A stretch of DNA of 64,000 nt, taken from Aquipseudomonas alcaligenes (lineage in GTDB: Bacteria; Pseudomonadota; Gammaproteobacteria; Pseudomonadales; Pseudomonadaceae). The position numbers were made by a program, and so were the translations under genes. The stretch covers positions 1-64,000 of the forward strand of contig NZ_QJRX01000002.1 in assembly GCF_003205495.1 (NCBI RefSeq), written 5' to 3'. Position 1 is the stretch's first letter, and each line of letters starts with the position of its first letter. The notes below the pieces were generated by a model that had not been told where the DNA came from, searched no databases, and was given only the letters and a program-made list of their open reading frames with translations. This document shows, in pieces, positions 53,208 through 53,977 of this stretch.

Positions 53208-53224
53208 TTGGCACGCGCTTTGTA
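53208..53224 (+). promoter_or_regulatory. Sigma-54 promoter of the split pilin operon
   Basis: TTGGCACGCGCTTTGTA fits the -24/-12 consensus TGGCAC-N5-TTGCA, with GG at 53210-53211 and GT instead of GC at -12. The predicted start point is near 53235. With pilSR in the same window this indicates RpoN/PilR control, as for pilA in P. aeruginosa. Confidence 0.8.
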
Positions 53225-53284
53225 TGTGTTACGTCAGACGAGGTGTTAAGCCTCGCTCCCCATGTCACCAGGAGACCATCTCAA

Positions 53285-53467
53285 ATGTCGAAGAAAGTTC
53301 AGAAGGGCTTTACCCTCATCGAACTGATGATCGTGGTTGCGATCATCGGTATTCTCGCGGCCGTTGCCATTCCGCAGTTCCAGGATTATCAGGCTAAAGG
53401 CTACGACAAGTCGGCTCAGTCCGATGCTCGTAACATCCTGACCGGCGCCATCGCCAACTCGAACTGA
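53285..53467 (+). CDS. pilA: Short type IV major pilin, PilA-N type
   Basis: A 60-residue prepilin: leader MSKKVQKG, then FTLIELMIVVAIIGILAAVA with Gly at -1 and Glu5. The mature chain is only 52 residues, ending GAIANSN, so it has the N-terminal helix but no globular beta domain (ordinary Pseudomonas pilins have about 145). Aromatic residues Phe1, Phe24, Tyr27 and Tyr32 match those I recall in the 61-residue Geobacter PilA-N. AGGAG upstream fixes the start. It sits at the normal pilA site, divergent from pilBCD, behind a sigma-54 promoter. The stop is genuine: the next gene begins 20 bp later with its own ribosome binding site and signal peptide. The gene symbol reflects position and family; the split form is unusual. 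Confidence 0.92.
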   Translation: MSKKVQKGFTLIELMIVVAIIGILAAVAIPQFQDYQAKGYDKSAQSDARNILTGAIANSN

Positions 53468-53487
53468 TTTAGAGAAGGGCTAACAAG

Positions 53488-53928
53488 ATGAAAAAGATTA
53501 TCGTTGCCTCCCTGGCCGTCGCAGGTCTGATGAGCTCCACCGCGTTTGCCGCCTCTGCCGGTACTCCAAGACTGGATGTGACCCTGGCCGATGGTTACAA
53601 CGAAATTGCAGGGCTTGATCGTGAGATCAATTTGGCTCAAGCCGGCACTATGACTGCAATTGCCAGCCGCGCAGGTTTTGTGAAGAACAATTTTGACTTC
53701 ACCATCTCCGCAAACGTGGTGCTCGGTGTGATCGATGATGGTGACAACAGCCGTTTCGGTGCCATCGCCGGTTCCAACAAAGGTTACAATGTGTTCACTG
53801 GCTCTTCCGTTGGTGGCAGCATTTCCCAGTGCGGCGATCAGTTGGAAAAGACTGTTGAGAATCTCGCCGCCAGTGCAGTCGTCGAAGGTAGCATCGATCT
53901 CGATGAAGCCAATGGTTGCGGTCGCTAA
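53488..53928 (+). CDS. Sec-exported partner of the short pilin (PilA-C-like)
   Basis: A 146-residue precursor with a classic signal peptide (KKIIVASLAVAGLMSSTAFA, cleavage after Ala21) and a mature part of about 125 residues without membrane helix or prepilin site. The sequence is rich in Gly, Ser, Asn and beta-prone segments. Two cysteines only, Cys115 and Cys144 (SQCGD and NGCGR), close a C-terminal loop as the D-loop does in normal pilins. GAAGGG precedes the ATG. Cotranscribed with the short pilin, it would supply the missing globular domain after export, the PilA-C role in Geobacter. I recognise no other family, so function is inferred from context. Confidence 0.8.
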   Translation: MKKIIVASLAVAGLMSSTAFAASAGTPRLDVTLADGYNEIAGLDREINLAQAGTMTAIASRAGFVKNNFDFTISANVVLGVIDDGDNSRFGAIAGSNKGYNVFTGSSVGGSISQCGDQLEKTVENLAASAVVEGSIDLDEANGCGR

Positions 53929-53946
53929 TAAGCGTTTCGTAGGTTG

Positions 53947-53977
53947 AAAGACAGGCCCTGGTGGCCTGTCTTTTTTT
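53947..53977 (+). terminator. Terminator of the split pilin operon
   Basis: AAAGACAGGCC and GGCCTGTCTTT with a 5-nt loop, followed by TTTTTTTG. A strong terminator, so the ABC cassette downstream is expressed by read-through or from its own promoter. Confidence 0.9.

Follow-up and report, generated by a model that had tools for sequence, protein, structure and literature searches.

Positions 1 to 64,000 of contig NZ_QJRX01000002.1 of Aquipseudomonas alcaligenes (assembly GCF_003205495.1; this whole stretch of 64,000 nucleotides is called the window here) include an island that likely encodes a type IVa major pilin split into two chains, PilA-N (the stem) and PilA-C (the head), which would dock into a heterodimeric subunit polymerised by PilB/PilC, as in Geobacter. 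We read the locus as one allele of the pilin island of Pseudomonadaceae, with a split pilin that very likely works as the Geobacter pair does; assembly of the heterodimer is the step that we infer.

PilA-N has a class III leader with cleavage at MSKKVQKG^FTLIEL..., leaving a mature part of 52 aa, and N_methyl was its sole match in a domain family search. Both the translation of the open reading frame (ORF) and this match agree with a preliminary description of the locus, which had listed a 60-residue prepilin without a globular domain. The stop codon at 53465-53467 and the encoding of the head in a second ORF, in a different frame, rule out a one-chain full-length type IVa pilin composed of helix and globular domain. 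Among PDB chains, the three best matches of PilA-N are Geobacter PilA-N (geopilin domain 1; E 9e-17 to 9e-15), and the best full-length pilin is a weaker match (E 1.4e-10). A search over 5.8 billion proteins scored 7991 sequences and found 7727 relatives; it admits only proteins of about 33-105 residues and thus shows that short pilins are many, without measuring their share relative to full-length ones. Among the 120 relatives listed, 109 are 59-64 residues long and the remainder 66-96, and the hosts among the matches listed include Pseudomonas, Stutzerimonas, Candidatus Accumulibacter, Rhodocyclales and Chitinimonas.

The gap between pilA-N and pilA-C is 20 bp. As described before, the second gene encodes a protein of 146 residues with a C-terminal cysteine pair and a predicted Sec signal (MKK...AFA), the latter judged by eye and from a low-confidence modelled N-terminal helix spanning residues 3-22. 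Its two cysteines, C115 and C144, are both invariant across 68 aligned homologues. Altogether 152 homologues were found; the 120 listed span 132-163 aa, and no fusion of a stem with a head of this family (type 1 in the following) is among them. In two structural comparisons of the predicted fold (model with a predicted local distance difference test score, pLDDT, of 84.4), the three solved Geobacter PilA-C chains (6vk9, 7tgg, 9egp) rank 1-3, with modest scores. PDB sequence searches with head profiles gave no useful matches, and no PilA-C was among the PDB matches of the 68-sequence head profile at E <= 10; the available part of PMC6201914 reports PilA-C to be highly divergent and to form two clades. 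A frameshift or assembly error is ruled out by a PilA-C ORF with its own start and signal and by recurrence of the pair in independent genomes, and because the pair is conserved across genomes the split is not a product of chance either.

Type-1 heads were detected in 5 of 398 genomes of the genus and in 9 of 298 genomes of the family; both counts include the source genome, the samples overlap, and with the best 10-13 candidates per genome scored the counts are lower bounds. A single-protein search of 57 genomes and a profile search of 95 found a type-1 head in the source genome only. All ten genomes in which the two larger samples revealed a type-1 partner have a short pilin gene 6-20 bp upstream of it (measured from the first start listed), and the pair is also present in two named Pseudomonas records, one of which is probably identical with a sampled genome (G327). 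The ATP-binding cassette (ABC) permease encoded downstream of the pair was found in 36 of the 298 family genomes and never without stem and partner: all 36 encode a stem of about 58-63 residues that is followed, after at most 33 bp, by a partner of the secreted type with about 141-161 residues (seen at 29 of the 30 loci read first; L068 and six further genomes were read separately). A close permease occurs in nine genomes, precisely those with a type-1 head. A stem match of E <= 5.1e-17 was obtained for 35 genomes, every one of them within the 36, and the remaining one of the 36 (G618) scores 9.6e-15. One further genome, G545 (L116), carries a stem and a partner of a second family beside pilB and no detectable ABC permease. 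The pair is thus present in at least 37 of 298 Pseudomonadaceae genomes, a lower bound as weaker stem matches were inspected in part, and this rules out an arrangement unique to the source strain. Upstream of the pair, pilB was found in divergent orientation in 34 of 34 genomes examined among the 36 (G566 and G521 left out), and in G028, the sole cassette-free genome read, the place between pilB and nadC is taken by a full-length pilin gene on the pilB strand.

The remaining 27 of the 36 permease genomes carry the second partner family, type 2, and the occurrence of these unrelated partners on similar stems is the most surprising part of our results. In a 56-sequence alignment of relatives, type-2 partners have four invariant cysteines and a fifth in more than 90% of sequences. 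The type-2 model reached a pLDDT of 86.3, and no pilin-head chain was listed for it in either PDB structural comparison. Common ancestry of the two kinds of head is not supported, as profile comparison aligned only the 23-column signal; a larger alignment covered 66 columns, made up of the signal and a stretch around the LSANV strand. Five type-2 cassettes (L067, L071, L078, L080, L081) encode, between partner and permease, an additional short prepilin that was read as 59-91 aa long. In the permease tree (42 rows), type 1 groups with L026 and L027, which come from one other family of the class, and type 2 with L031 from a third family, with support of 100/100 for the split, although long branches meet in this tree and the bootstrap has not settled. 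As the two permease lineages are separated at this support though both types occur within the genus of the window, the tree suggests at least two entries of split cassettes into Pseudomonadaceae, a reading limited by the long branches. L026 and L027 likewise carry a stem, a small secreted-type partner and the permease, and in a search of a small set their partners match the type-1 profile weakly (E 0.00095 and 0.0071).

Stem and head differ in their divergence. Pairwise identity within the nine type-1 genomes is 90-100% for mature stems (mean 95.8) and 42-73% for heads without their first 22 residues (mean 56.6; 35 pairs each, with the same-species pair left out). Full-length pilins, too, usually have conserved N-terminal helices, and the combination of a frozen stem with a variable head fits an exposed head but does not prove it. 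It is conceivable, and we propose it tentatively, that the split pilin is a two-part kit in which a near-frozen stem receives whole secreted heads that are swapped, even for unrelated ones: type 1, with the PilA-C fold, and type 2, which matches no solved head, would sit on closely related 60-residue stems, each accompanied by its own ABC lineage, and entire cassettes would spread from family to family while keeping to the same island borders.

We take pilB and tRNA-Thr/nadC to be the borders of the Pseudomonas pilin island (Table 1), and the pair was found between them, in agreement with its earlier placement where a full-length pilA normally lies. The placement of both genes behind one sigma-54-like site and before one terminator was likewise confirmed, by pattern scan and folding energy. 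The pattern TGGCAYN5TTGYW matches once in the window (0.21 matches expected), and the terminator hairpin (-20.4 kcal/mol, z -3.57) was equalled in stability by none of 200 shuffles. A slightly looser sigma-54 pattern is present in five of nine other type-1 genomes tested and in none of 29 type-2 loci; neither the type-2 loci nor the four type-1 genomes without the site support its presence in cassettes at large. The far side of pilB holds a PilC homologue, whose best NCBIfam matches are below the cut-offs, and a gene labelled pilD by position alone, with no NCBIfam match at 1e-40.

The preliminary description had captured the pilin pair and left out the ABC transporter encoded directly behind it. 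The gene between permease and ATPase, whose product has no Pfam or NCBIfam match, has counterparts in the same position in those type-2 loci that are long enough to show it. No match to the acyltransferase-3 gene was found in the three type-2 loci reaching nadC; a role of its product in surface-sugar or pilus modification is possible. By analogy, the ABC transporter is a candidate for a dedicated pilin assembly factor. In Myxococcus xanthus an ABC transporter (PilG/H/I) likewise goes with the pilin and is described as indispensable for moving pilin across the inner membrane (PMC3724824, in part); PMC6060248 (in part) cautions that PilGHI look like ABC transporters of which many copies exist. 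Unlike the split pilin, Myxococcus PilA is one large chain according to the available part of PMC11046646.

Table 1. Features of the split-pilin island and its flanks (positions in the window)
Feature	Position	Strand	Basis
pilB, divergent left border of island	51333..53045	-	TIGR02538, 846 bits, above cut-off
Sigma-54-type promoter-like site, TGGCAC-N5-TTGTA	53209..53224	+	Pattern match
PilA-N, 60-aa prepilin stem without globular head	53285..53467	+	ORF translation, N_methyl match, PDB matches
PilA-C, 146 aa; Sec signal (predicted), beta-rich head, C115/C144	53488..53928	+	ORF, homologues, structure model
Intrinsic terminator after pilA-C (hairpin and T run)	53946..53977	+	Folding energy
ABC-2 permease of cassette	54000..54797	+	PF12679 above cut-off
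Cassette gene without a family match, flanked by permease and ATPase genes	54794..55630	+	Present in 6/6 long type-1 loci (5 genomes)
ABC transporter ATPase of cassette	55627..56520	+	PF00005, E 3e-28; present in 6/6 long type-1 loci (5 genomes)
Acyltransferase-3 gene inside island, overlapping end of ATPase gene	56517..57548	+	PF01757; 6/6 long type-1 loci (5 genomes)
tRNA-Thr (CGT), right border of island	57582..57657	+	tRNA call
nadC, right flank	57692..58540	-	TIGR00078 above cut-off

A prepilin-motif scan of the genome gave 18 places, including the PilA-N stem, and no other full-length pilA of the type IVa pilus kind was seen among them, so that the proposed check for a second such gene came out negative, with a set resembling the mannose-sensitive haemagglutinin (MSHA) pilus present. 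Four of the 18 matches belong to the PilY1 neighbourhood of the window, namely PilE (23508-23933), a 141-aa prepilin that adjoins PilY1 and matches the minor-pilin family ComP_DUS, and three minor pilins (GspH/FimU-like, PilV-like, PilW). Two type II secretion system clusters contribute four matches each, and the MSHA-like cluster (C13) has five prepilin-motif ORFs, of about 143-293 aa where read, and encodes an ATPase of its own as well as a protein resembling GspF/PilC; the type II secretion and MSHA labels, assigned by ORF reading, are presumptive. The two type II secretion pseudopilin clusters of G000 (C2, 106.5-112.5k, L087; C11, 108.5-114.5k, L086) are closely similar. NCBIfam cut-offs were reached by PilB, PilM, PilQ and two tandem PilT/PilU-family ATPases.

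The Geobacter pair (GSU1496/GSU1497; PDB 6vk9, 7tgg, 9egp) resembles the one in the window in combining a short prepilin with an adjacent gene for a secreted beta-rich protein, and among PDB chains it is nearest to the stem in sequence and to the head in fold. It differs in that the head sequences are not recognisably related, in its longer mature stem (61 aa versus 52) and in its setting; the pair in the window belongs to a Pseudomonas-type island that is bordered by pilB and tRNA-Thr/nadC and includes an ABC cassette. The Pseudomonas island with a full-length pilA shares the flanks, as G028 keeps pilB and nadC around its pilin; in the window, however, the pilin chain has no head, ABC genes are present, and the pilin is divergent from pilB. 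The suggestion of a two-chain, Geobacter-like pilin is supported by the nearest PDB stem, the ranking of the head fold, the lack of a further full-length type IVa pilA among the 18 prepilin-motif matches and the presence of pilus machinery, and its assembly part keeps the status of an inference. In the mechanism that we propose, PilD would cut PilA-N at G^F and the helix would stay in the inner membrane; PilA-C would be exported via Sec, fold as a beta-sheet head closed by a C115-C144 disulphide and bind, without a covalent link, to the outer half of the PilA-N helix in the periplasm. PilB/PilC would then polymerise the heterodimer, PilT/PilU would retract the fibre, and the ABC transporter of the cassette might help in pilin export or assembly, by analogy with Myxococcus PilG/H/I. 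The island itself has apparently been exchanged as a cassette: between pilB and nadC, relatives have either a pilA of full length (in the one such genome examined) or another split cassette whose partner is unrelated.

It is unlikely that the short pilin assembles alone and that PilA-C, rather than being a fibre subunit, acts on it as a chaperone or stabiliser in the periplasm. A chaperone would explain equally well that GSU1497 is essential to stabilise PilA (Richter 2011, as cited in the available part of PMC5174107), and it would suit the lack of a pilin-head match for type-2 partners; in Geobacter, however, PilA-C chains lie in the fibre in the cryo-electron microscopy entries 6vk9, 7tgg and 9egp (entry titles; PMC12954529, in part), and a head that diverges much faster than its stem fits an exposed surface better. 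Quite unlikely, too, is a short secretory pseudopilus that serves export together with the ABC transporter and the acyltransferase instead of a twitching pilus. The title of Gu 2021 states secretory behaviour for Geobacter pili, and the permease, which in this sample is always accompanied by the pair (36 of 36), would agree with such a function, but the cassette occupies the pilA site in a genome that has two PilT/PilU-family ATPases, a PilY1/minor-pilin operon and two separate pseudopilin sets presumed to be of type II secretion.

We consider it very unlikely that the split locus is a relic and that the working pilus is formed by an MSHA-like pilin or by PilE, although the MSHA-like cluster with its five prepilin-motif ORFs and the 141-aa prepilin PilE would speak for it. 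Both genes of the pair are intact and conserved across species, with mature stems 90-100% identical in the nine type-1 genomes; PilE stands beside PilY1 and matches a minor-pilin family, and the MSHA-like set stands beside an ATPase of its own. A split type IVa pilin of the Geobacter kind remains the reading that we prefer.

The claim that no Pseudomonas with such an arrangement had been described is partly wrong. Truncated pilins are in print: PMC5174107 (2016), in its available part, lists them in Pseudomonas, Candidatus Accumulibacter, Neisseriaceae and others, describes the Geobacter pair, for which it proposes gene fission, and describes a partner gene for Geobacter only. For P. stutzeri S116, the available part of PMC9118636 reports that no truncated pilin was found. 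The abundance of the pair in the family also counts against the claim, and we found no report on a PilA-N/PilA-C pair in Pseudomonas in the open-licence literature.

Two-chain pilins have been described and debated mainly in Geobacter and its relatives, around extracellular electron transfer (PMC5174107, PMC6201914 and PMC12954529, each in part). Our results make the split pilin look like one ordinary allele of the island, carried by about 12% of the Pseudomonadaceae sampled. Many strains of this family are tractable, which would allow pilin splitting to be studied apart from nanowires. Two questions become directly testable in this way, the reason for which a pilin is split and the exchange of heads on one stem, and the cassette offers its ABC transporter as a candidate for a dedicated assembly factor.
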